Source: Microbacterium sp. AZCO (lineage in GTDB: Bacteria > Actinomycetota > Actinomycetes > Actinomycetales > Microbacteriaceae). From it: a DNA stretch of 64,000 bases. This document shows positions 3,023-12,619 of the stretch, one piece after another. The notes beneath the pieces are model-generated. The model was not told the DNA's origin, ran no database searches, and worked only from the letters and a program-made list of their open reading frames with translations. The stretch covers positions 1,364,001 through 1,428,000 of the forward strand of contig NZ_CP154857.1 in assembly GCF_039614715.1 (NCBI RefSeq), read 5' to 3'. A program made the translations under genes and the position numbers. Numbering within the stretch: the first letter of the stretch is position 1; the number at the start of each line of letters is the position of its first letter.

Positions 3023-3093
3023 GGGGATGTAGCTCAATGGTAGAGCCTCAGTCTTCCAAACTGATGGTGCGGGTTCGATTCCCGTCATCCCCT
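3023..3093 (+). tRNA. tRNA-Gly (anticodon TCC), element attachment site
   Basis: The cloverleaf has acceptor GGGGATG/CATCCCC, D arm TAGCTCAATGGTAGAGC, anticodon stem TCAGT/ACTGA with loop CTTCCAA (anticodon TCC), and T arm GCGGGTTCGATTCCCGT. The gene is intact. Its 3' part from position 3053 onwards is duplicated at 12578-12619, marking it as the integration target of the element that follows. Confidence 0.95.
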
Positions 3094-3094
3094 C
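3053..3094 (+). repeat. attL: 42-bp direct repeat, left copy
   Basis: Starts at CTTCCAAACTGATGG inside the tRNA-Gly anticodon loop and ends one base past the tRNA. It is identical to 12578-12619 over 42 bp; flanking bases differ on both sides. Confidence 0.95.
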
Positions 3095-3170
3095 GAAGTG
3101 GAAAAGTCCAGATCAGAACGGATTCTTTACCCTCCGTGAACATGTGGGTTCAGACCCTTTCACGGCCACC

Positions 3171-3193
3171 ATGCGCACTCATGCGCACTCATG
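3171..3193 (+). repeat. Left arm-type repeat: tandem atgcgcactc
   Basis: Two tandem copies of the 10-mer atgcgcactc followed by atg. The same 23 bp occurs in the same orientation at 12436-12458 near the other end. Ten-base spacing puts both units on one helix face, as in integrase arm sites. The repeat also overlaps the integrase upstream region, so integrase could regulate itself here (inference). Confidence 0.65.
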
Positions 3194-3214
3194 GCCCCGA
3201 AAGGACCCACCCGC

Positions 3215-4591
3215 ATGACTCCCTCGACGCCGTCCCGACGCGCTCAGAAGACGCCCTCCGGACGCCCGCACCCGAATATTCTCGGCACCGTCCGCCGCGA
3301 GAAGAGCGGACGTTTCCGCGCCTCCTACCGCATCGACGGGCGCACGTTCAGCGCGCCGAAGACGTTCGACACCGAGCGCGACGCGCAGGCGTGGCTCGCC
3401 ACCGAGCACGGCGCACGCAAGGCCGGAACATGGATCGACCCGCACCTGGGGCGCGTGACGCTCAGCGCCTACGCCCGCACGTGGCTCGCCGCACGCGTCG
3501 AGCTGGCCCCGCGCACCCGGGACATGTACGAGGATCTGCAGGGCCGCTGGGTCGACGTCCGCGTCGGCGACCAGCGCGGCGCGGGCCTCGTGCTCGGCGA
3601 CTACGAAGTGGGCGCGATCAGCACCGCCGTCGTGCGCGCCTGGTACGGCTACGTGCTCGGCACCGCCCGCGACAACGCGCTCGCCAAGCACAGCCGCGCC
3701 AAAGCCCGACAGCCCCACCCCGCCCGCGTCTGGGGCGCCGCCAACGGCCACACCACAGCGGCATCCGGACGGATGAGCCCGGCCGTGCTGGCGGCGTGGA
3801 CGGCGGCAGGCTCCCCCACACCGCCGCCGCCGCCCGTGAAAGACGAGCTGCGACAGCACGCCGGAACCACCAGCGCCGCCCGCGCGTACCAGCTCCTGCG
3901 CACCCTCATGAATTCCGCCGTCGACGACGGGCTGATCGCCGCGAACCCGTGCAAGCTGAAAGGCGCGGGCAGCACCGAGCACCCCGAGCGGCCCGTGCTC
4001 ACCGCCGCCGAAGTCGACCAGCTCGCCGCGCAGTTCCCGGAGCGCCTGCGCGCCGCCGTCCTCGTCGCGGCGTGGTCGAGCCTGCGCTACGGCGAGCTGT
4101 TCGCCCTCGCCCGCCGCCACGTCGACCTCGACGCGGGCACCCTCCGCGTCGAGCGCGCCCTCATCGAGCGCGTCGGGCACCCGGTCGGCTTCGGTCCCAC
4201 CAAGACGACCAGATCCCGCCGCGTCGTGCACCTGCCCGGATTCGTCGTCGACGCGCTCCGCGACCACCTCGCCGCGCACGTCGACGCGGACGACGACGCA
4301 CTGCTGTTCACCCGCACGTCCGGTGCTGTCATGACCAACGCCACCGTGTCCGCGCAGATGCGACGCCACCGCCGCGCCATCGGACGCGACGACGTGCACT
4401 GGCACGACCTTCGCCACACCGGCGCGACCCTCGCCTACCGCGTCGGCGCGTCACAGCGCGACGTGATGAACCGCCTCGGGCACACCACCACCCGCGCCGC
4501 CGCCATCTACGCGCACGCCGCCGACGACAGCGACCAGTACCTCGCCACCCGCCTGGACGCCGCCTACCGCGGTACCGGACGCGCCGCATGA
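3215..4591 (+). CDS. Tyrosine-type site-specific integrase
   Basis: This enzyme should recombine the tRNA-Gly attachment site with the element. The C-terminal catalytic domain shows the family residues: Arg in SSLRYGELF, a Lys/Arg-rich beta hairpin, the box HDLRHTG, the LGH motif and the nucleophile Tyr in YAHA close to the end. The N-terminal half holds an AP2-like arm-binding segment (GRFRASYRIDGRTFSAPKTF) and a SAM-like core-binding segment, which is interrupted by an Ala/Pro-rich insert near residues 175-215. The start at 3215 is preferred because AAAGGA lies upstream; an in-frame ATG at 3191 would add eight residues but overlaps the arm repeat. It lies 120 bp from attL and points into the element, the usual layout for tRNA-integrating elements. 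Confidence 0.95.
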   Translation: MTPSTPSRRAQKTPSGRPHPNILGTVRREKSGRFRASYRIDGRTFSAPKTFDTERDAQAWLATEHGARKAGTWIDPHLGRVTLSAYARTWLAARVELAPRTRDMYEDLQGRWVDVRVGDQRGAGLVLGDYEVGAISTAVVRAWYGYVLGTARDNALAKHSRAKARQPHPARVWGAANGHTTAASGRMSPAVLAAWTAAGSPTPPPPPVKDELRQHAGTTSAARAYQLLRTLMNSAVDDGLIAANPCKLKGAGSTEHPERPVLTAAEVDQLAAQFPERLRAAVLVAAWSSLRYGELFALARRHVDLDAGTLRVERALIERVGHPVGFGPTKTTRSRRVVHLPGFVVDALRDHLAAHVDADDDALLFTRTSGAVMTNATVSAQMRRHRRAIGRDDVHWHDLRHTGATLAYRVGASQRDVMNRLGHTTTRAAAIYAHAADDSDQYLATRLDAAYRGTGRAA

Positions 4592-4642
4592 GCATGGGCC
4601 GCGCAGATGACAGTCGCTCACCTTCGGCGACCCCGTGCGGCC

Positions 4643-4672
4643 CCCGTTTGCTCCCGTTTGCTCCCTTGTGCT
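4643..4672 (+). repeat. Three 10-bp iterons between integrase and next gene
   Basis: cccgtttgct occurs twice in tandem, followed by the degenerate cccttgtgct. The repeats lie in the 111-bp gap after the integrase and just upstream of the next start. They could bind a regulator or the excisionase; nothing in the sequence identifies the partner. Confidence 0.5.
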
Positions 4673-4702
4673 CTGTTCTGACCGACTGCTAAGACAGGGA
4701 CC

Positions 4703-5092
4703 ATGCGCAGAACAACGTCGAGCATTGCACGCAAACGTGCACTCCGACGTGAGCGCGTGTCCGCTCGCCGCACCCGGTTGAGCAGGCTGCACAACTACTT
4801 TCGCGCCTACCCCAGCACCGGACGCTGGGAGCGAGTGGTGCATGCGCCGAGCGCGCACGGGCTGACGGTGGCGGATCAGATCCACATCGATGGCGTCATG
4901 ATCCGTCGCGCCATGGACGCCGAAGCGCTCGCGGCTCTGTCGCTGGAGATGCTTGACAGCCGAGGCCATGAGCTGGCCGCGCTGGTCGCGCGTGTCGCAT
5001 CGCTCACGGCGGCGGACGCAACCTGCGCGCCGCCGCCGCCGACACCGTATCGCGCCACACCTCGCGCGCCTCGCGCGCCCGCCGCGGCATAG
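4703..5092 (+). CDS. Hypothetical protein of the element
   Basis: A 129-residue protein not recognised. The first 30 residues are strongly basic (MRRTTSSIARKRALRRERVSARR), suggesting nucleic-acid contact. The middle is a plausible folded helical segment (GLTVADQIHIDGVMIRRAMDAEALAALSLEML), and the end is a low-complexity Ala/Pro/Arg tail. AGGGACC precedes the ATG at 4703. It lies between the integrase and the excisionase-like gene on the same strand, behind three 10-bp iterons, so it may belong to the control region of the element. Reading frames on the opposite strand overlap it, but they lack ribosome sites and show inverted codon bias. Confidence 0.55.
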   Translation: MRRTTSSIARKRALRRERVSARRTRLSRLHNYFRAYPSTGRWERVVHAPSAHGLTVADQIHIDGVMIRRAMDAEALAALSLEMLDSRGHELAALVARVASLTAADATCAPPPPTPYRATPRAPRAPAAA

Positions 5093-5220
5093 CCGCGGCA
5101 CGCCCCAGCAGCGCCGCCCGTCCTGACACGGGCTGACCACCCGCGCCTCGACGACGTCGCGCGTGCCCGGCACGACCCCTCTGAGCAAGCATTCAGCGGT
5201 CGTGACCGAAGGACACACGC

Positions 5221-5463
5221 ATGACCCCGCGCAACCCCGACATCGTCGGAAGCGAACAGCCCGCGCCCGTCCCGCCCGTCGGACTCCAGCCCGACGGCGG
5301 GCCGTGGCTGAACATCGTCAGCTCTGCCAACTACGCCAACGTCTCGCCAAGGACGATCCGTCGCGCCATCCAGGACGGGCGACTGCGCGCCAGCCGCCCG
5401 GCACGCATGTGGCGAATCCTTCGCGCCGACCTGGACGCATTCATGAAGGCGGCGGAGCGGTGA
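5221..5463 (+). CDS. Excisionase-like helix-turn-helix protein
   Basis: An 80-residue protein whose C-terminal half matches the MerR-like/excisionase HTH fold: residues YANVSPRTIRRAIQDGRL form the helix-turn-helix, and WRILRADLDAFM is the typical closing strand and helix in which the wing contacts DNA. Such proteins direct the integrase towards excision or act as small regulators. The N-terminal 30 residues are Pro-rich and probably disordered. AAGGA upstream supports the start at 5221. The stop overlaps the GTG of the next gene (GTGA), so it is translationally coupled to the replication operon; expression of excision and replication functions together is expected for an element that is induced and then replicates. 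Confidence 0.85.
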   Translation: MTPRNPDIVGSEQPAPVPPVGLQPDGGPWLNIVSSANYANVSPRTIRRAIQDGRLRASRPARMWRILRADLDAFMKAAER

Positions 5464-5648
5464 GCGTCGACGACGAGCTGCGCGCCGCTCTCGCCTCCCT
5501 CCCAGCGGCGACCAGCGGCAATCCCGGTTCGCGCGCGGTTCGCCGCGCGGTGATGCAGCTCTGCCCGGAGGCCGCGCGTGTCCCCCGCCGGCACGTCGCC
5601 GCACTGTGCCGCGACATCACGACGGGCGGCGCACCGTGGGAGCAGTGA
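5460..5648 (+). CDS. Small hypothetical protein, coupled to excisionase
   Basis: A 62-residue protein beginning MSVDDELRAALASL from a GTG that overlaps the stop of the excisionase-like gene by 4 bp and ending GGAPWEQ. A longer open frame extends upstream to 5163 but lies out of frame over the excisionase gene, so the GTG at 5460 is the sensible start. The sequence is helical with two Cys residues (VMQLCPEAARV and AALCRDI). It is not recognised. Overlap at both ends (GTGA at 5460 and 5645) makes it a link in a chain of coupled genes, and supports that it is really translated. Confidence 0.65.
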   Translation: MSVDDELRAALASLPAATSGNPGSRAVRRAVMQLCPEAARVPRRHVAALCRDITTGGAPWEQ

Positions 5649-5983
5649 CCCTGAACCGCGCGACCCGCCGCTGGGCGGGCGCAGGCGCGCCCGCGGGTGC
5701 GCTTCTGCTGGTGCGCTTCCTCGCCACGCTCGCCGACGACGCGCAGGTGCCGCCCCACGCGCCACTGACCTACCTCGGCGGCGCGCGCCCCCTTCGCGAA
5801 CGCCTGGGCCATCACACGCCCGTCGACGACGCCGCCGAAGCGCGGTGGCGGGTGCTGTCGCGCCATCTCGGTGACGCCCGCGCGGCGGGCATGCTCGTCA
5901 CCGTCCGCGCCGCGCAGCTGCACGTGCCGCGAGTGAGCATCATCCCGCTCGCCGACACGGCGACCCCGATGGGCGGTGCATGA
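5645..5983 (+). CDS. Hypothetical protein of the replication operon
   Basis: A 112-residue protein starting from GTG at 5645 (MTLNRATRRWAGAG), overlapping the previous stop by 4 bp; a GTG three codons earlier is also in frame. The body is Ala/Arg-rich and globular in character, with a segment ARWRVLSRHLGDARAAGM that could be helical. The end overlaps the ATG of the primase-polymerase gene (ATGA). No known domain is evident. Position immediately upstream of the primase suggests a replication accessory role, which is inference from context only. Confidence 0.65.
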   Translation: MTLNRATRRWAGAGAPAGALLLVRFLATLADDAQVPPHAPLTYLGGARPLRERLGHHTPVDDAAEARWRVLSRHLGDARAAGMLVTVRAAQLHVPRVSIIPLADTATPMGGA

Positions 5984-6807
5984 GCGTGCTCGACATCCAG
6001 ATGCGCGGTTCAGCCGACGGCTTCGTCATCGGGCTCGAGGAGCAGATCGCCGCGCGCCGCGCGATCCTGCCCGAGCTGCACCTGCACCCCACGCTCGGGA
6101 AAGTGCCCGCGGTCGACTGGGGCACGATGTCCAGCGCCGACCCCGCGCGCCGCGCCGACATGCGCCGCGTCCGTCACGACGGATGGGGTGCGGCGTGCAA
6201 GCTCTCGGGCGTGCTCGTCGTCGACCTCGACCAGCACAATCCTGCCGCAGACGGCTTCGCGCAATGGGTGCAGCTGCTCGGCGCCTGGCGCGGCCCGCAG
6301 GCGGGCATGGTCGGCGCGACGCCGGGCGGCGGACGTCACATCTGGTACACCAACCCGCACGGCTGGAAGGGCCACATCGGGATCATGCCCGGCGTCGACC
6401 TGCGCGGCGCGGGCGACGGCGCGGGCAGTCAGGTGGTCATCGCAGGACAGGGCCGCCTCCTGCGTGTGCTCGGGCCGCTCACCGACCCACCCGCACCGCT
6501 GGTCGCGCTGATGACAGCGAAGCTCGCCCCAGCTGCGCCGCCCCGGCCAGCTGTTCGCGCAGGCAGTGGCGGTCTCGGCGCTCGCGCCCGCGCGCTCTGC
6601 GAACAAGTCGCCCGGGCACCAGAGGGTGAGCGCAACGCCCGGCTGTACTGGGCCGCGTGCCGCGTCTCCGACGTCGTCGCCGACTCGGCGGTGTCCATGG
6701 TCGCGCTTCAAGAGGCGCTGATCGCCGCCGCCGTGGTCGCCGGGCTCGACGAAGACGAAGCGCGCACGACGGTCGGCAATGCCGGCAGATACTCGGTGGC
6801 ATCGTGA
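5980..6807 (+). CDS. Primase-polymerase (Prim-Pol) domain protein
   Basis: A 275-residue protein with the bifunctional DNA primase/polymerase N-terminal fold used by plasmids and phages to start replication. Visible signatures are the catalytic acidic pair in LVVDLDQHN (about D82 and D84), the GGGRHIWY segment carrying the conserved His near residue 120, and the later GVDLRGAG...SQVVIAG strand in which the third acidic residue lies. The C-terminal 90 residues are helical. Helicase activity is encoded separately by the next gene, which overlaps by 4 bp (GTGA), so the two probably work as a primase-helicase pair. Start is the ATG overlapping the upstream stop. Confidence 0.88.
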   Translation: MSVLDIQMRGSADGFVIGLEEQIAARRAILPELHLHPTLGKVPAVDWGTMSSADPARRADMRRVRHDGWGAACKLSGVLVVDLDQHNPAADGFAQWVQLLGAWRGPQAGMVGATPGGGRHIWYTNPHGWKGHIGIMPGVDLRGAGDGAGSQVVIAGQGRLLRVLGPLTDPPAPLVALMTAKLAPAAPPRPAVRAGSGGLGARARALCEQVARAPEGERNARLYWAACRVSDVVADSAVSMVALQEALIAAAVVAGLDEDEARTTVGNAGRYSVAS

Positions 6808-8216
6808 CCGCCGCCACTGACGACGAGCGCGAAGACGCCCGCGCCCGCATGGAAGGACTCCTGTCGGATCTGGAAGCACGCGCAGCTCCGGGCGCGGAGT
6901 GGTTCGGCGCGACGCCGCTCCTGCGCCACATCCGGGAGTGGGCTCGCTCGCTGGACGTCAACCCGTTCGCCGCGCTCGGCGTCGTCATGGCCCGGCTGTC
7001 CGGAGACATCCCGCCGTGGGTGGTGCTTCCCCCGCTGGCAGGCAGTGCGCCCGGCACGCTGAATCTTTACGTGGTGCTCGCTGGCGGGTCAGGCATGGGC
7101 AAGTCCGACGTGCTCAGCTCCCATGACCAGCGGTTCCGCCCGCGGCCCGGCATCCACAACGACCCCGTGCGCGCGTTCGAACCCGCCACGGGCGAGGGCA
7201 TCATCACCCGCTACGTGCAGATGCAGAAGCTCGATGGACGCTACGTGCACACGATGGTGCACCATCAGGCGTTCGCCGACATCGACGAGATAGACGCGCT
7301 GGAAGCACAGGCATACCGCGGCGGAAGCACCATCGTGCCCGTGCTCAAGACGATGTGGTCGGGCAAAGCCATCGGCACCGCCACGGCCACCGAAGAGCGC
7401 GACCGCCACTTAGACGCGCACAGCTACCGCCTCGCGCTGGTCGCAGGGTGCCAGTACGGCGCGGGCGACGTACTGCTGGGCGCACGTGCCCAGCTCGGCG
7501 GGCTGACACAGCGGTTCCTGTTCGCCAACCTCCGCGACCCCGACCTCACCGCCGACAGTCCCGAGACAGACGCACCCGCACCCGTGCAGCTGCGCCTGCC
7601 CGACGGCATGCCGTTCCCCACCGCGCTCGGCGGAGAGGGTGCCGGGCGTCACGTCGGCGGGCGCTTCGTGGTGCGCGTCGACGCCGCCGTGCACAGCGAG
7701 ATGCGCCGCGCCCGCCGCCTCCAGCGCATGCACCAGCCCGGCGGCGTCGACGGCCACTGGCAGTACACGCGCCTGCGCGTGGCCGCACTGCTCGCCATCG
7801 CGCACGGCGACGCGACGGTGACGGTCGACTGGTGGCAGCTCGCCCACGGCGTCATGCTGCACAGCGACCGCACGCGCAACAGCATGCTCGAAGCGCTCAC
7901 CGTCCAGCGCGACCGTGAAGCATCCGGGCGCGGGCGAAGCGACGGCATCCGCGCCGACGCCGCCGACGCCGAGCTGATCGCCCGTGCCGCGACGACCTTC
8001 GTGCAGATCGCCGCCAAGCACGCCGCCACGAGACAGCACGCCGACGCCGGATGCACTCTGCGGTGCATGACCCAGGGCGCGCCCCGCCATCGCGACCGAG
8101 CAGAGGCCGCGCTCACCTGGGCCGTCGACCGCGGCATGCTCCTGCACGCCGAGCGGAAGAACCGTCGCGGACGGGACACGACACACTACAGCCCGCCGCC
8201 ACTGCTCACCGGTTGA
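6804..8216 (+). CDS. Replication ATPase, DUF3987/primase-helicase-like
   Basis: A 470-residue P-loop protein. Walker A is GGSGMGKSD near residue 95 and a Walker B-like segment is FADIDEID. The central region (AGCQYGAGDVLLGARAQLGGLTQRFLF) resembles DUF3987-type helicase-like proteins that accompany Prim-Pol primases on plasmids and phage elements, where they are thought to unwind DNA at the origin. The start is a GTG overlapping the primase stop; upstream ATG codons in the same frame fall inside the primase gene. The following 227-bp non-coding stretch has paired repeats and may be the origin it acts on. Family assignment is by motif and context, so moderate. Confidence 0.8.
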   Translation: MTAATDDEREDARARMEGLLSDLEARAAPGAEWFGATPLLRHIREWARSLDVNPFAALGVVMARLSGDIPPWVVLPPLAGSAPGTLNLYVVLAGGSGMGKSDVLSSHDQRFRPRPGIHNDPVRAFEPATGEGIITRYVQMQKLDGRYVHTMVHHQAFADIDEIDALEAQAYRGGSTIVPVLKTMWSGKAIGTATATEERDRHLDAHSYRLALVAGCQYGAGDVLLGARAQLGGLTQRFLFANLRDPDLTADSPETDAPAPVQLRLPDGMPFPTALGGEGAGRHVGGRFVVRVDAAVHSEMRRARRLQRMHQPGGVDGHWQYTRLRVAALLAIAHGDATVTVDWWQLAHGVMLHSDRTRNSMLEALTVQRDREASGRGRSDGIRADAADAELIARAATTFVQIAAKHAATRQHADAGCTLRCMTQGAPRHRDRAEAALTWAVDRGMLLHAERKNRRGRDTTHYSPPPLLTG

Positions 8217-8242
8217 GCACGGCATCCACGCCGCGGTGACAC

Positions 8243-8406
8243 GTTGACACGTTGACCACGATGCCGCACACACCAGACACGCCACCCCCGAAGGAACAGC
8301 CCGCGCCCCTACGAGGAAGCAGAAACACACACCACACCGCGCTACCAACACGACCGGCCACACCCGCGGCCAACGGGGCACCGCGTCACCGGGTCAACGT
8401 GTCAAC
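8243..8406. other. Candidate replication origin of the element
   Basis: The non-coding interval 8217-8443 holds tandem copies of tgacacgt (8237-8252) and a perfect 15-bp inverted pair, gttgacacgttgacc at 8243-8257 and ggtcaacgtgtcaac at 8392-8406. The 130 bp between them is markedly C/A-rich and poor in T on the + strand. Iteron-like repeats directly after a primase/helicase pair are typical of an origin. This is inference; no replication data can be seen. Confidence 0.5.
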
Positions 8407-8443
8407 CCGTCCGCGGCGCGCACACCCATCACCGACGAGAGGA

Positions 8444-8722
8444 ATGACCATGACCGCCGACGAGCCACACTGGTTCGCGCCCATCGACGCGTACGTGCTC
8501 GACGAGCCGTGCCCGAGATGCCACGCCCAGCCCGGCGCACTGTGCACCGGACGCCGCCCGCTCGGGCGGTACCACGCCCCACGATGCGACCGAGCCATCG
8601 CACATTACGACCGCGACGTCGTCACCGCGCCATGGCTGGAGGACCGCAGGCCCGGCGTCAGCTACTCCACATTGCTGACTCCGAAGCCCACCATCGACGG
8701 CGTGCGCGCGTCGCCGCTGTGA
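8444..8722 (+). CDS. Small zinc-finger protein, phage type
   Basis: A 92-residue protein with the motif CPRCHAQPGALC followed by basic residues and HAPRCDRA. This Cys-x2-Cys...Cys arrangement matches the short zinc-binding module common in actinobacteriophage and plasmid proteins, thought to bind DNA. The chosen start (MTMTADEPHWF, 8444) has GAGAGG upstream; a longer open frame to 8252 would read through the inverted repeats and gives low-complexity Thr/Pro sequence, so it is rejected. Single gene after the candidate origin; a role in replication control or transcription is possible but unproven. Confidence 0.7.
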   Translation: MTMTADEPHWFAPIDAYVLDEPCPRCHAQPGALCTGRRPLGRYHAPRCDRAIAHYDRDVVTAPWLEDRRPGVSYSTLLTPKPTIDGVRASPL

Positions 8723-8898
8723 GATTCACAGCGACGACGACGTGTCTCGCATCCAAGAACGGCGGAAGTTTCGCGCGCGGTTTTCTGACGACGCCCCGGG
8801 TGCCGGGACACCATGCGCCTTGTCCGTCTTTTCTCTAGTTCGCGCAAAGAAAAGCCCGGTAAGAACGAAGAATCTGAACGACGATGAATAAGACTGGA

Positions 8899-9078
8899 TC
8901 AGCGCCCGAAGCGGTCGAGCGTGTAGCCGTATCGGCAGGGTGCACAGTACGCGCGACGTCGTCGGCCCGTCTTCGGGTAGTTGTACTCGTAGACGCGCGT
9001 GGGCTGACTGCCGCATCGCGGGCATGGCCGTGCTCGGTCGAGCGCGAGCTGCGATTGGTCGGCGGACATGCCACCCAT
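8899..9078 (-). CDS. Small zinc-ribbon protein on the opposite strand
   Basis: A 59-residue protein (MGGMSADQSQLALD...) with two Cys-x2-Cys knuckles, CPRCG near residue 19 and CAPC near residue 45, separated by a Tyr/Arg-rich loop (RVYEYNYPKTGRR). This is the layout of a zinc ribbon. AGGAG stands 6 bases before the ATG, better than most genes in the element. It is the only well-supported leftward gene within the left two thirds of the element, and it diverges from the gene at 9102. The + strand frame over the same bases has no ribosome site and no recognisable features. Function unknown; such ribbons bind nucleic acid or protein. Confidence 0.6.
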   Translation of the reverse strand: MGGMSADQSQLALDRARPCPRCGSQPTRVYEYNYPKTGRRRRAYCAPCRYGYTLDRFGR

Positions 9079-9101
9079 GATGCTCCTGCGAGAGCCCGCC
9101 C

Positions 9102-9590
9102 GTGAGCGACGAGCGCGCCGACCTCCGCGCGCGCCTGATCGTGGATGGACGCCGGGTCTGGGGCGGCAATTTCATGTCGACGAGCGACCTCATCGCGAAG
9201 CTCGTCGAGCTGCGCCCCGAGCTGTGGGGAACGATCAGCCACGGCCAGCAGCTCACGCCGCAGAAGCTCGAAGGCATCCTGCGCGGCGGGATCTACCCGA
9301 CGTCGGCGCACAGCGTGCGTGCGGGCCGTGGCCCGAAGGGTCGCTGGCTGAGTCAGTGGCAACTGCTCGTCGATACCGTGCCGACGCCCGTGGGCGTCGA
9401 GCTGGAGTCTGAGCATGTCAGCGGCGATGCGGGCGTGGTTGTGCAGTTCGACGCGGGCGCGGTCGAGCGGCTTGCGGCGGGTGAGGCGTGCATGGTCGTG
9501 CCGATCGTGCGCATATCGCAGTGGGATCGTGCGCCCAGACGCGTCTACCTGGTGACGGTGCCGCCCGGCGTCGAGACACTAGGCGCATGA
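9102..9590 (+). CDS. Hypothetical protein with DUF3631-like segment
   Basis: A 162-residue protein. Residues 27-80 (STSDLIAKLVELRPELWG...LTPQKLEGILRG...SAHSVRAGRGPKGR) resemble the C-terminal winged-helix segment of DUF3631 proteins, which follows a helicase-like ATPase in many actinobacterial plasmid and phage proteins. Here it stands alone, about 900 bp downstream of the ATPase gene, so the two parts may act together in trans. The second half is not recognised. The start is uncertain: GTG at 9102 has a weak ribosome site and an in-frame ATG at 9174 begins right at the domain. The stop overlaps the next ATG (ATGA). Confidence 0.6.
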   Translation: MSDERADLRARLIVDGRRVWGGNFMSTSDLIAKLVELRPELWGTISHGQQLTPQKLEGILRGGIYPTSAHSVRAGRGPKGRWLSQWQLLVDTVPTPVGVELESEHVSGDAGVVVQFDAGAVERLAAGEACMVVPIVRISQWDRAPRRVYLVTVPPGVETLGA

Positions 9591-10061
9591 CCACGAAAAC
9601 CACCAGCACCCCCCGCCGTCGCGCCGCCGAAAGACTACCCACGCGCCGACTGGGCGACGCCGGATGATCCCGACTTCTACGTGCCCGACGAGCTGCGCGG
9701 CTACTACGCCGAAGTCACGCCGACGCCCACGGAGGAAGCCGGGTACTGGCGTGCCGGCACGACCGTGCAGGAGACCTTCCCGCACGACGCGGCGGTCGCC
9801 CGCGCCGTCGCGGCGGGCCGCGATGAAAGCACGTTCAGCCGCATCGAGGACTTCCTGCGCGTCCAGCCCGGTGACTTCATCCAGCAGTACGGCCCGGCGT
9901 CGGACACCACGGGCGACCAGCAGCGCTACGTCGTCCGCTCGACATACCGGCTGTCGGGCCGCGATGACTTCGCGGCATGGCTTCACCTGTACCGACTGGA
10001 ATGGGCGCGCAAACGTCACGAGCGCGCCCAGCACTTGGCACCGAAGGAGAACGCGTCATGA
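9587..10061 (+). CDS. Hypothetical protein split by a C6 frameshift
   Basis: Coding sequence is clear from about 9630 to 10061 in one frame (KDYPRADWATPDDPDFYVPDE and onwards), but that frame has no start before a GTG at 9681 that lacks a ribosome site. The natural start is the ATG at 9587, which overlaps the previous stop, but it is in another frame and stops after 26 codons. Removing one base from the six-C tract at 9609-9614 joins them into one protein starting MTTKTTSTPAVAPPKDYPR. So the gene is either frameshifted, read by slippage at the C tract, or carries a sequencing error. The roughly 157-residue product is not recognised; it precedes the prohead protease and could be virion-related. 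Confidence 0.6.
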
Positions 10062-10387
10062 TCCCGGCCAACCACTTCCCGCCCCCCGCAGAAGAGCCGC
10101 CACTGCCGCGCGGACAGCTGCACTCGATGCGCACGCCCGCCGAATCGCTCGCCGACCGCAACCGCCAGATCCAGGCCCGCCTCGCGAGCTTCGGCACGAA
10201 CCCGCAGACGTCGTCGTCATCGTCGCACAGCCCGCGCCGCGTCGGCGACCCGGCCAGCGCCGCACTCACGGTCGACACCGCGTCGACACTGGACGACGAC
10301 GGCGGCGTGCTGATCGATGTCGACGGACGCCCCATGCTCATCGACTCGGGCACCGGCGCGGCACTGCACTACATGCTCAACGGCTGA
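10058..10387 (+). CDS. Hypothetical protein before prohead protease
   Basis: A 109-residue protein starting at ATG 10058, which overlaps the previous stop by 4 bp and has GAAGGAGA upstream. The N-terminal half is Pro-rich and contains a short helical segment (AESLADRNRQIQARLASFG); the middle is Ser-rich linker; the end folds as strands (GVLIDVDGRPMLIDSGTGAALHYML). No family is recognised. It is followed 5 bp later by the prohead protease gene, so the two are co-transcribed and may act in the same process. Confidence 0.6.
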   Translation: MIPANHFPPPAEEPPLPRGQLHSMRTPAESLADRNRQIQARLASFGTNPQTSSSSSHSPRRVGDPASAALTVDTASTLDDDGGVLIDVDGRPMLIDSGTGAALHYMLNG

Positions 10388-10392
10388 CGACA

Positions 10393-10971
10393 ATGCCCGA
10401 GCTGCTGGTCACCCGGTCGCTGGACGCGACATCACTTCACCCCATCGGTGACGGGTGGACACTGCACGGCCTCGCGGTGCCCTACGACCGCGACCAGTTG
10501 GTGACCGACGACGGCCAGACGTACTACGTCGAGCGGTTCGCCCCGCACGCGTTCGCACGCGACAGCGTCAAGGGCGGCAGATGGGTCAATCTGTACGTCG
10601 GGCACCGCGGCGACGACGGCGAGCGCTACCTGGGCCGATGCGTCGGCATGCGCGACGCGCACGACGGCCTCTACATCGACTTCCGAATCAACCGCGCACA
10701 CCCGCAAGCCGAAGACGCCCGCTCAGGCGAGCTGAGCGGCTGGTCCGTCTCCGCGAAAGTCTGGCGCACCCGCATCGACCACATCGACGGCAAAGAGCGC
10801 CGCACGCGAGAGCGCGCCGGGCTCAACCACGTCGCCGCGACCGCCGTGCCGCAGTACCCGGGCGCGGGCGTGCTCGTCGCCCGCGGCGCACGCTTCGAGC
10901 TGAACGCCCGCCACCGCATCGACGCACTCCGCCACGACGTCGCCCGCACACTCCAGGACGTCAGACGCTGA
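10393..10971 (+). CDS. HK97-family prohead protease
   Basis: A 192-residue protein matching phage HK97-type prohead proteases, which cleave scaffold or the major capsid protein during head assembly. Shared features are the opening strand pattern ELLVTRSLDA...GLAVPYD, the YVERFAPHAF segment, the catalytic His in YVGHRGD, and the catalytic Ser in LSGWSVSAKVW followed by RAGLNHVAATAVP. Length fits the family. No capsid protein, portal or terminase gene is near, so its substrate must come from elsewhere, plausibly a helper phage. It is the last gene of the rightward operon and is followed by a strong terminator at 11009-11034. Start is ATG 10393, with only a weak ribosome site. Confidence 0.88.
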   Translation: MPELLVTRSLDATSLHPIGDGWTLHGLAVPYDRDQLVTDDGQTYYVERFAPHAFARDSVKGGRWVNLYVGHRGDDGERYLGRCVGMRDAHDGLYIDFRINRAHPQAEDARSGELSGWSVSAKVWRTRIDHIDGKERRTRERAGLNHVAATAVPQYPGAGVLVARGARFELNARHRIDALRHDVARTLQDVRR

Positions 10972-11008
10972 GCCCGTCTCGACATGCGCCCGCCGTGCCG
11001 CCCGGAAG

Positions 11009-11034
11009 CCTGGCCCCGAGGAGCCGGGGCCAGG
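11009..11034. terminator. Terminator after the element's main operon
   Basis: Ten-bp perfect stem cctggccccg/cggggccagg with a 6-base loop, 38 bp after the prohead protease stop. Confidence 0.7.
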
Positions 11035-11041
11035 TCGCCGG

Positions 11042-11182
11042 TTATGCACGTGACATCATCACGATGATGTCGAGGATGACCGCCAGGATGACCGCGACAT
11101 CCACGCGGACCACAACCCGGACGATGCAGCGGATGCCGCGTGTCGGTCGCTTCCTGCCCTTGCTCTTACCTTTTAGACTCAT
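11042..11182 (-). CDS. Possible small single-span membrane peptide
   Basis: A 46-codon frame with a basic N-terminus (MSLKGKSKGRKRPTR) followed by a hydrophobic stretch (VVVRVDVAVILAVILDIIVMM) that could span the membrane. GAGAG lies 12-13 bases upstream, slightly far. The terminator at 11009-11034 would serve it as well. The hydrophobic run contains Arg and Asp, so it may be a peripheral or non-functional helix. Weakly supported: size alone makes chance possible. The rest of the 465-bp gap 10972-11436 holds two hairpins and a 12-bp palindrome (11288-11299). Confidence 0.25.
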   Translation of the reverse strand: MSLKGKSKGRKRPTRGIRCIVRVVVRVDVAVILAVILDIIVMMSRA

Positions 11183-11227
11183 AGCAATCGCGCACTCTCT
11201 GTTTAGTCACTGCGAGGCGAAGATTCC

Positions 11228-11256
11228 GACCCGTCCTGTTACTAGCAGGGCGGGTC
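11228..11256. terminator. Hairpin in the element's right intergenic region
   Basis: Arms gacccgtcctg and cagggcgggtc (one G-T pair) around loop ttactag, followed by the T-rich acttcgttgttc on the + strand. Looks like a rho-independent terminator. Confidence 0.5.
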
Positions 11257-11436
11257 ACTTCGTTGTTCAATCGTGCGCCGCTGTCATGTCGCATGCGACT
11301 AGACACGCTGGCCCAGGATTACGACCGTGTGACTTTCCGGTGGAACACATCGCTTGTCACGCCGTCCTGAGTGGTCGCGCCCACGGCGGTACGCTGGTCG
11401 CCTCGGTGGCCGGGCTGAGCCGCGAGAGGACATGCC

Positions 11437-11679
11437 ATGCCGCGCCGCCCAACCCGAGACATCGACGCGCGCGCGTTCGACTTCCTCGACCGCAACGTCA
11501 ACGAGCACGCCGAACTGACCTACCTACGTGCGGGCTCTGACCCCGACTGGGAGCGCCCACACCGCAACGGCGTCGACATCACCGACAAGCCTGAGCTGCA
11601 AACCCCCTACCAGCGAGCGCGCCGTCGATCATTCGAAGCGAGAGTGGACGACTACCGCCGCCGCGGACTCATCGCTTAG
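11437..11679 (+). CDS. Small hypothetical protein
   Basis: An 80-residue charged protein (MPRRPTRDIDARAFDFLDRNV...), rich in Arg and Asp, with the end FEARVDDYRRRGLIA predicted helical. GAGAGGA upstream supports ATG 11437; an ATG 5 bases earlier is out of frame. No family is recognised and no membrane segment is seen. It is a single gene behind the AT-richer promoter-like stretch 11160-11400 and converges with the membrane-protein gene to its right. Such right-end positions in integrated elements often hold accessory genes. Confidence 0.55.
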   Translation: MPRRPTRDIDARAFDFLDRNVNEHAELTYLRAGSDPDWERPHRNGVDITDKPELQTPYQRARRRSFEARVDDYRRRGLIA

Positions 11680-11719
11680 CCGACGCTCGCCACTCATGGC
11701 TTCTGGCGCGGATCCCTTG

Positions 11720-12370
11720 TCACGTCTGTCGTGGGTCGGACTGAAGGTGTAGCCCGCGCAGGACGTCGAACGCGTCAGCGATCTTCTCCTTGCAACCATT
11801 GCGAGAGTAATCGGATGCGGTCGCCCAGTACGCCTCGATGAGGTTCATCAGGCTGCTCCGCAGAACGATGTCGGAGACTGCTTGAATGTCGCTCGTCCGA
11901 TAGCCGACGGCGGCCATGTTCTCAAGGTCATACTGGGTGTCCCGCAATTCGCGCGACAGCTCCTGCATCCGTTGACGGCGGGTGAGTGGCGGGTACAGGG
12001 TTTCGTCGAGGTCGGCAGTGCTGAGCTTCAGCTCAGGCAATGTTCGAATGTCCCCAGCCTTTGTCAGTAGGTCGCCACGGACGTCTTCTGCCAAGACAAC
12101 ACCGGCGAGCTGAATGAACAGTCGTTGCTGAGCGATGAGGCGGTGGTCAATCATCGCGTGGACCGGCGCCATCCGTTTGCGCGACTCTGCTTCACGTCTC
12201 GCGGTATCGCGGAGCGCTACCGCGTCCACAAGCCCGGCTGTCAGGAACGATAACGCCACGCCAATCCACACCTGGAGCCATGTCGGGTCAGACCGGTACG
12301 CGTACGTCAGCCACCCGGCAACGACCGCCACGACGATGAACACGGTCGGAAGCAGCCAGCGGAGACGCAC
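11720..12370 (-). CDS. Two-helix membrane protein, likely element cargo
   Basis: A 216-residue protein with two N-terminal membrane helices (LLPTVFIVVAVVAGWLTYAY and VWIGVALSFLTAGLVDAVAL) and a 160-residue, mostly helical, charged cytoplasmic region (RREAESRKRMAPVHAM...). No enzyme motif is visible and no family is recognised. It is transcribed leftward from next to the right attachment arm, against the main operon. Single cargo genes in this position in satellites and prophages often alter phage infection (superinfection exclusion or abortive infection), but this is inference. Base composition is somewhat less GC-rich than in neighbouring genes. Start ATG 12370; no strong ribosome site. Confidence 0.65.
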   Translation of the reverse strand: MRLRWLLPTVFIVVAVVAGWLTYAYRSDPTWLQVWIGVALSFLTAGLVDAVALRDTARREAESRKRMAPVHAMIDHRLIAQQRLFIQLAGVVLAEDVRGDLLTKAGDIRTLPELKLSTADLDETLYPPLTRRQRMQELSRELRDTQYDLENMAAVGYRTSDIQAVSDIVLRSSLMNLIEAYWATASDYSRNGCKEKIADAFDVLRGLHLQSDPRQT

Positions 12371-12435
12371 GCCGCCGACGCTACAGGCAGTGACGCGGTC
12401 GGTCGCGTGTCACACTCCGTCCCGACTGCCGGTCG

Positions 12436-12458
12436 ATGCGCACTCATGCGCACTCATG
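12436..12458 (+). repeat. Right arm-type repeat: tandem atgcgcactc
   Basis: Identical over 23 bp to 3171-3193 and in the same orientation, 120 bp inside the right attachment repeat. It is followed by the related cluster at 12464-12491. Confidence 0.65.
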
Positions 12459-12463
12459 AGGGA

Positions 12464-12491
12464 CCAAATGGGACCATTTGGGGCCATTTGG
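12464..12491. repeat. Clustered ccaaatgg/ccatttgg sites by attR
   Basis: ccaaatgg (12464-12471) forms an inverted repeat with ccatttgg (12474-12481), and a second ccatttgg follows at 12484-12491, exactly 10 bp on. Helical phasing suggests binding of integrase, excisionase or a bending protein. Confidence 0.5.
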
Positions 12492-12577
12492 GGCCACCTC
12501 AGTGCTACGCTAAAAACGCCGATGAAAGGCATAAACCCGCGGAATTTCGCGGATCGTGGAACCGCCTCTGAGCGTGG

Positions 12578-12619
12578 CTTCCAAACTGATGGTGCGGGTT
12601 CGATTCCCGTCATCCCCTC
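12578..12619 (+). repeat. attR: 42-bp direct repeat, right copy
   Basis: Perfect copy of the tRNA-Gly 3' segment at 3053-3094. The 5' half of a tRNA is absent here, so this is not a functional tRNA gene but the right junction. Confidence 0.95.

Follow-up and report, generated by a model that had tools for sequence, protein, structure and literature searches.

What does a single phage head gene do in a small element that holds its own integration and replication genes? This question is raised by a locus of Microbacterium sp. AZCO, located in a stretch of 64,000 nucleotides (C1:1364001-1428000, hereafter the window, whose positions are used below) of a 4.23-Mb single-contig genome. Here, an element of 9,525 bp, measured as the spacing of two 42-bp repeats, is integrated in a tRNA-Gly(TCC) gene. 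The best reading is a group of small satellite-like elements, one of which acquired the capsid protease of a phage lineage, presumably for use on the procapsid of a helper. The element as a whole is probably (roughly 60%) a small actinobacterial helper-dependent integrative element, either a phage satellite or satellite-like, since its anatomy fits such an element. Its principal features are:

3053-3094, plus strand: attL core, 42 bp, the 3' part of tRNA-Gly(TCC) at 3023-3094 (repeat search, tRNA call)
3171-3193: 23-bp repeat near attL (a 10-bp unit twice), probable integrase/excisionase arm site
3191-4591, plus strand: tyrosine integrase, 466 aa (PF00589, 4.2e-21)
5221-5463, plus strand: HTH_17 protein of the excisionase/AlpA type (PF12728, 1.7e-10)
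5980-6807, plus strand: Prim-Pol domain primase/polymerase (PF09250)
6804-8216, plus strand: P-loop ATPase, helicase-like, with Walker A GGSGMGKS (phrog_28894, 6e-43)
8217-8449: candidate replication origin with inverted iteron-like GTTGACACGTTGAC sites
10393-10971, plus strand: head maturation (prohead) protease, 192 aa (phrog_80, 9e-8)
10972-11436: structured stretch without a good gene (z -5.7), at the place of the capsid gene in related phages
12436-12458: the 23-bp repeat again, this copy near attR, with the same putative role
12578-12619, plus strand: attR core, a perfect copy of the attL core (repeat search)

A phage head gene without its usual neighbours

The strongest single fact for a helper-dependent reading is the displaced phage head gene. 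The protease, whose start at 10393 falls within a longer open reading frame (ORF; 9664-10971), gives fold matches to prohead proteases of the Peptidase_S78 type, holds H71, S118, and H146, which are invariant across 26 sequences, and keeps 57 of 59 otherwise invariant residues in an intact frame. It also matches phrog_2263, a major head protein family (8.8e-5), at profile positions 40-180 of 551, corresponding to a protease-like front part, unlike true capsids, which match this profile at 172-543. The protein itself has no PF04586 hit, one relative (P0002) lies barely above the cut-off of that family (21.2 vs 21), and a PDB sequence search with the protease profile returned none.

The INPHARED phage records hold no match to the protease, and in a collection of 84,980 species a single contig was matched, from M. 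helvum, where a phage region (L089) encodes a protease 74% identical to that of the element. Among viral contigs, a search with the single protein gave none and one with an alignment gave 99; the 80 retained make 81 loci together with the M. helvum region, the IMG/VR contigs reaching up to 23 kb. These relatives lie in a TerL-portal-protease-capsid cassette, with a portal hit in all 65 loci that extend more than 700 bp upstream and a capsid hit in 78 of the 80 that extend more than 700 bp downstream. Judged by these comparisons, the element's protease is a phage head gene without its usual neighbours, and its source lineage is that of L089 and of uncultured phages with this head and packaging cassette. 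The other 13 element proteins had no match in the stretches compared, a negative that is strong only for the longer loci, because many of the 81 are only 4-6 kb. The preliminary description had held that the same gene block within a full prophage would speak against a satellite; phage head cassettes were indeed found to contain the protease, and the rest of the block was not matched there.

The main rival, which is considered unlikely, is that the element is a reduced derivative of an integrase-excisionase-primase-protease-capsid element or prophage, like phiBN42_1; deletion would have removed the capsid gene and left the protease as a remnant of the capsid-bearing ancestor. In phiBN42_1, a mycobacterial prophage-like element in a tRNA-Arg gene, the genes for integrase, excisionase, primase, prohead protease, and major capsid protein appear in rising locus-tag order, according to the passages on it in PMC3986857. 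In the window, the 465 bp after the protease, where the capsid gene would be, contain no good gene, and the protease branch is long. Such a history agrees poorly, however, with the intact frame and kept residues of the protease, with a strong similarity to phage that ends inside the gene, and with siblings (see below) that have related integrases and no detectable protease. Capsid, portal, and terminase relics are likewise not recognisable: phage terminase, portal, capsid, and connector proteins compared with the element gave a lowest E of 0.042, and the sole mention of a terminase in the family scans is a chance-level match of the HTH_17 protein to a small subunit (E 0.092). A clean deletion of the capsid gene may nevertheless have taken place. 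On the minus strand, the structured stretch also contains an ORF of 46 aa (11042-11182) whose start is basic and whose tail is hydrophobic; it may encode a small membrane peptide.

When 16 element ORFs were scanned with Pfam and 17 with PHROG, none was recognised as a capsid, portal, tail, relaxase, or FtsK/TraB gene, in agreement with the preliminary description, which had reported no other virion or conjugation genes. From the own capsid, portal, and terminase set by which capsid-forming phage-inducible chromosomal islands (cf-PICIs) are recognised, the element holds none, the protease being its only head gene found. P4-like satellites carry Psu, Delta, Sid, and the alpha primase, none of which appeared in the general Pfam and PHROG scans, where no dedicated models were run.

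A resident helper in the host genome was considered and rejected: the L089 portal matched 8 of 247 same-genus genomes, one at 100% (M. helvum) and seven at 22-26%, and the host was not among them. Searches of the host with PF05065 (capsid) and PF04586 were also empty, but the former negative is weak, because PF05065 does not detect the L089 capsid, and PF04586 misses even the element's own protease.

Integration and replication modules

Both copies of the perfect 42-bp repeats that the preliminary description placed in tRNA-Gly were found, and its account of a satellite-like anatomy with intact frames was borne out by the gene set: the genes are open frames, densely packed, with several 4-bp overlaps. 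The 23-bp repeat lies just inside each end of the element (0 expected in 100 shuffles), and an Rfam scan returned only tRNA. A match extending at least 45 nt beyond the joined junction, with an identity of at least 80%, was present in at least 14 of 149 same-genus genomes, which is consistent with an unoccupied site rather than proof of it; some of these matches may represent paralogous sites, because the host's own second tRNA-Gly also spans the joined junction, with 77% identity.

The integrase holds R299, H405, R408, H431, and Y440, invariant among six relatives and taken here to be the catalytic residues. Its matches in the M. helvum genome are only distant (29-34%). A weak mid-protein match to an Lsr2-type DNA-binding domain, under the cut-off in both cases, was observed in the integrases of the window (3191-4591; 0.022) and of a sibling element (L095:6228-7649; 1e-5).

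The Prim-Pol carries a DLD motif and the ATPase a Walker A motif, whose usual meaning is assumed here, as for the integrase motifs. The ATPase resembles the C-terminal part of phage primase/polymerases, and related ATPases occur in phages as part of such proteins, with 28.9-29.0% identity in the best 20 of 65 matches. It has no Pfam hit itself; its relatives P0124, P0126, P0128, and P0130 carry PF13148 (DUF3987). It was detected in 3 of 398 genomes of the family, including the host, with the single sequence, and in 4 (one of them weak) with a profile. Viral contigs gave none with the single sequence and three with the profile (L108, L109, and L110), the L108 ATPase being 39% identical to that of the element; judging from their ORFs, L108 and L109 resemble phage contigs in which primase and ATPase are fused.

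Downstream of the ATPase gene lie 233 bp with no good gene; they house the candidate origin, and it is plausible that this iteron region serves as such. Between 8235 and 8406, the 14-bp motif GTTGACACGTTGAC occurs four times, twice as perfect copies in inverted orientation and twice as near copies; a fifth hit, with 3 mismatches, lies outside. The candidate is based on the clustering of the sites, because the 5 hits in total are not above chance (mean 4.54). In sibling E4 (listed below), GGTGAAGCAC/GTGCTTCAC repeats are densely packed behind the primase gene (L144:5426-5705) and likely form an iteron origin.

Integration in tRNA genes, Xis, and Prim-Pol are likewise used by actinobacterial integrative and conjugative elements (AICEs), and the element could be a conjugative or mobilisable one, of the AICE or integrative and mobilisable element type, that acquired a phage gene. 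This origin is very improbable, as the Pfam scans of 16 ORFs contained no relaxase, no transfer protein, and no FtsK/TraB-type translocase, the latter being a hallmark of AICEs, and the ATPase was matched in just 2 of 72,556 plasmid records (27% and 31% identity).

Further genes and sibling elements

The remaining genes of the element, for which family assignments are based on the Pfam and PHROG scans, are:

4703-5092, plus strand: ORF, 129 aa, no family
5460-5648, plus strand: small overlapping ORF, 62 aa, no family
5606-5983, plus strand: small ORF, 125 aa, no family
8450-8722, plus strand: phage-type zinc-finger protein (Phage_zn_bind_8, PF24623)
9102-9590, plus strand: protein, 162 aa, no family (DUF3631 match of 0.0019, below cut-off)
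9681-10061, plus strand: protein, 126 aa, matching only itself in a protein search
10058-10387, plus strand: protein, 109 aa, no family
11437-11679, plus strand: ORF, 80 aa, no family named
11720-12370, minus strand: membrane-like protein (by eye) adjoining attR, possible cargo, no family over cut-off

The proteins at 9102 and 9681 had no match in phage records. A divergent ORF of 59 aa with two CxxC pairs lies on the minus strand at 8899-9078 and weakly matches a family of Lar-like restriction alleviation proteins (phrog_599, E 0.014).

Seven of 247 same-genus genomes, including the host, hold an integrase match at E of 1e-40 or lower. In two of them (L146 and L147) an att pair was sought and none was found; the bounded elements, one of which belongs to another genus of the family, are:

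E1: the element of the window
E2 (L131): 9.55 kb, tRNA-Gly TCC
E3 (L143): 8.05 kb, no tRNA called
E4 (L144): 9.51 kb, tRNA-Gly TCC
E5 (L145): 11.95 kb, tRNA-Ala GGC; border less sure, because the right repeat overlaps a serine recombinase ORF
E6 (L095): 7.42 kb, tRNA-Gly CCC, 49-bp repeats, other genus of the family

The sibling integrases are 44-55% identical to that of E1. E3 and E6 have the Prim-Pol and ATPase in common with it (28-35% identity), E2 and E4 hold a DUF5906/D5-type primase-helicase (PF19263) in their place, and E5 encodes an AAA_25 protein together with a tape measure protein. The preliminary description proposed to look in relatives for the same gene order at the same tRNA: related bounded elements exist, two of them at tRNA-Gly TCC, with partly swapped replication modules and no detectable protease.

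The E5 tape measure protein (L145:8915-12127, minus strand; 1070 aa; TIGR01760, 6.7e-27) is the sole virion gene recognised among the E5 ORFs scanned. E2 and E4 encode mutually related proteins (30%; L131:6028-7194, minus strand, and L144:6976-8406, plus strand), of which that of E4 has a very weak tape-measure match only (TMP_3, 0.0076). E2 (L131:3188-4615), E3 (L143:9455-10879), and E4 (L144:8730-10295) each encode an additional tyrosine recombinase, which lies on the opposite strand and close to the right end; no such additional enzyme was recognised in the element of the window.

The sibling E6 contains a protein matching the PADLOC candidate defence family PDC-M28C (4.5e-18), and in the window proteins without found relatives adjoin the protease. 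Both observations would suit an anti-phage island, whose protease cuts the scaffold or capsid of an incoming phage too early and which spreads by other means or rarely. This explanation is nevertheless somewhat doubtful: the full integration and replication set speaks for active spread, and none of the 7 element ORFs scanned clearly matches a defence family (best E 0.032).

Another element-like region of the same genome (L094; G000:C1:2259500-2279400) holds a serine recombinase, a fused Prim-Pol-ATPase with 31% identity to the ATPase of the window, a C5 methyltransferase, an HNH protein, a Vsr-like ORF (by eye), and a large and possibly a small terminase subunit; on reading the ORFs of this 19.9-kb stretch, only some of which were scanned, neither a capsid nor a portal was noticed. 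Three viral contigs (L160, L161, and L162, of 8.0, 14.7, and 10.8 kb) share a related integrase (40-43%) and HTH-like ORFs and encode a major capsid protein (58.7% and 68.8% identical to the L162 protein), with no protease detectable. Weak matches to replication initiators are present in L160 and L162, and L161 has type I restriction-like ORFs by eye.

As a tentative and rather unlikely generalisation, actinobacterial elements of this kind might be regarded as "one-part hijackers", with their own integration and replication genes and a single phage virion component that redirects or poisons helper assembly. The protease of E1, the tape measure of E5, and the lone major capsid protein of L160-L162 would be examples under that same tentative proposal.

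Known systems and a proposed helper-dependent life cycle

Small integrative elements of actinobacteria that combine a primase with some phage head genes were known before, judging by the published passages that describe them. The mycobacterial prophage-like elements phiBN42_1, phiRv1, phiRv2, and phiMmcs_2 can be likened to that of the window; phiRv1 and phiRv2 are 9.3 and 10.8 kb, and such elements have short flanking repeats, several in tRNA genes (passages of PMC3986857). By gene names only, phiBN42_1 shares integrase, excisionase, primase, and prohead protease, but in those passages its major capsid protein stands beside the protease, whereas none is recognised in the window. The gene set is therefore not as undescribed as the preliminary description supposed; what stands is the combination without a recognised capsid, and no element with the protease as its lone head gene was found in searches of an open-access library.

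PICMI satellites of Vibrionaceae hold an integrase, an AlpA/HTH_17-type regulator, a DUF3987/DUF5906-type replication protein, and few other genes. Their SatelliteFinder model, as given in the relevant part of PMC10803314, comprises PF00589 or a serine recombinase, PF05930/PF12728, PF13148/PF19263, and a fis location. The element shares the integrase and regulator families (PF00589 and PF12728), but it lies in the tRNA-Gly of an actinobacterium and holds a Prim-Pol and a head protease, whereas PICMIs are described there without a capsid-remodelling gene. cf-PICIs and the Streptomyces MulchRoom and MiniFlayer satellites also carry phage head genes. They differ in holding a full capsid and packaging set and, in MulchRoom and MiniFlayer, no known primases (sections of PMC10690885 on them), whereas the element pairs a single recognised head gene with a complete set of replication genes. 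In the same sections of PMC10690885, known satellites supply scaffolds, terminase subunits, or whole capsid sets, P4-like satellites contributing Sid and Psu (also in parts of PMC11389934). Prohead proteases are listed among the genes typical of tailed phages or known satellites in the portion of PMC12324425 concerned.

In the proposed life cycle, the integrase and the HTH_17 protein would excise the element from tRNA-Gly, and the Prim-Pol and ATPase would replicate it, probably from the iteron region. The element codes for no complete particle; the helper would be an infecting tailed phage of the kind from which the protease came. The element's protease may enter or attack the helper procapsid, shifting head assembly towards capsids that serve the element and its packaging; alternatively, it may simply spoil helper heads by premature cleavage, thereby blocking the helper.

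Several observations weigh against this helper-dependent reading. Two otherwise invariant protease residues are altered, and in the protease tree the branch leading to E1 is long (0.59), so that drift or a shift in function may be under way in this gene. Among 398 genomes of the family, the protease is confined to 2, the host and G193, the latter with a 60-residue match containing a stop. Profile searches found no protease in siblings E2-E6, which means that it is not a hallmark of the family. Moreover, a portal of the L089 type is missing from the host genome, packaging-site similarity to the related phages amounts to 4 short weak hits, and viral contigs hold no close integrase relative (best 43% among the matches listed).

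If a protease-only element of this type is real, proteolytic control of head assembly would be another point at which phages can be hijacked or interfered with. The element would then represent a concrete satellite system in Microbacterium, with the source phage lineage of its protease as the candidate helper.

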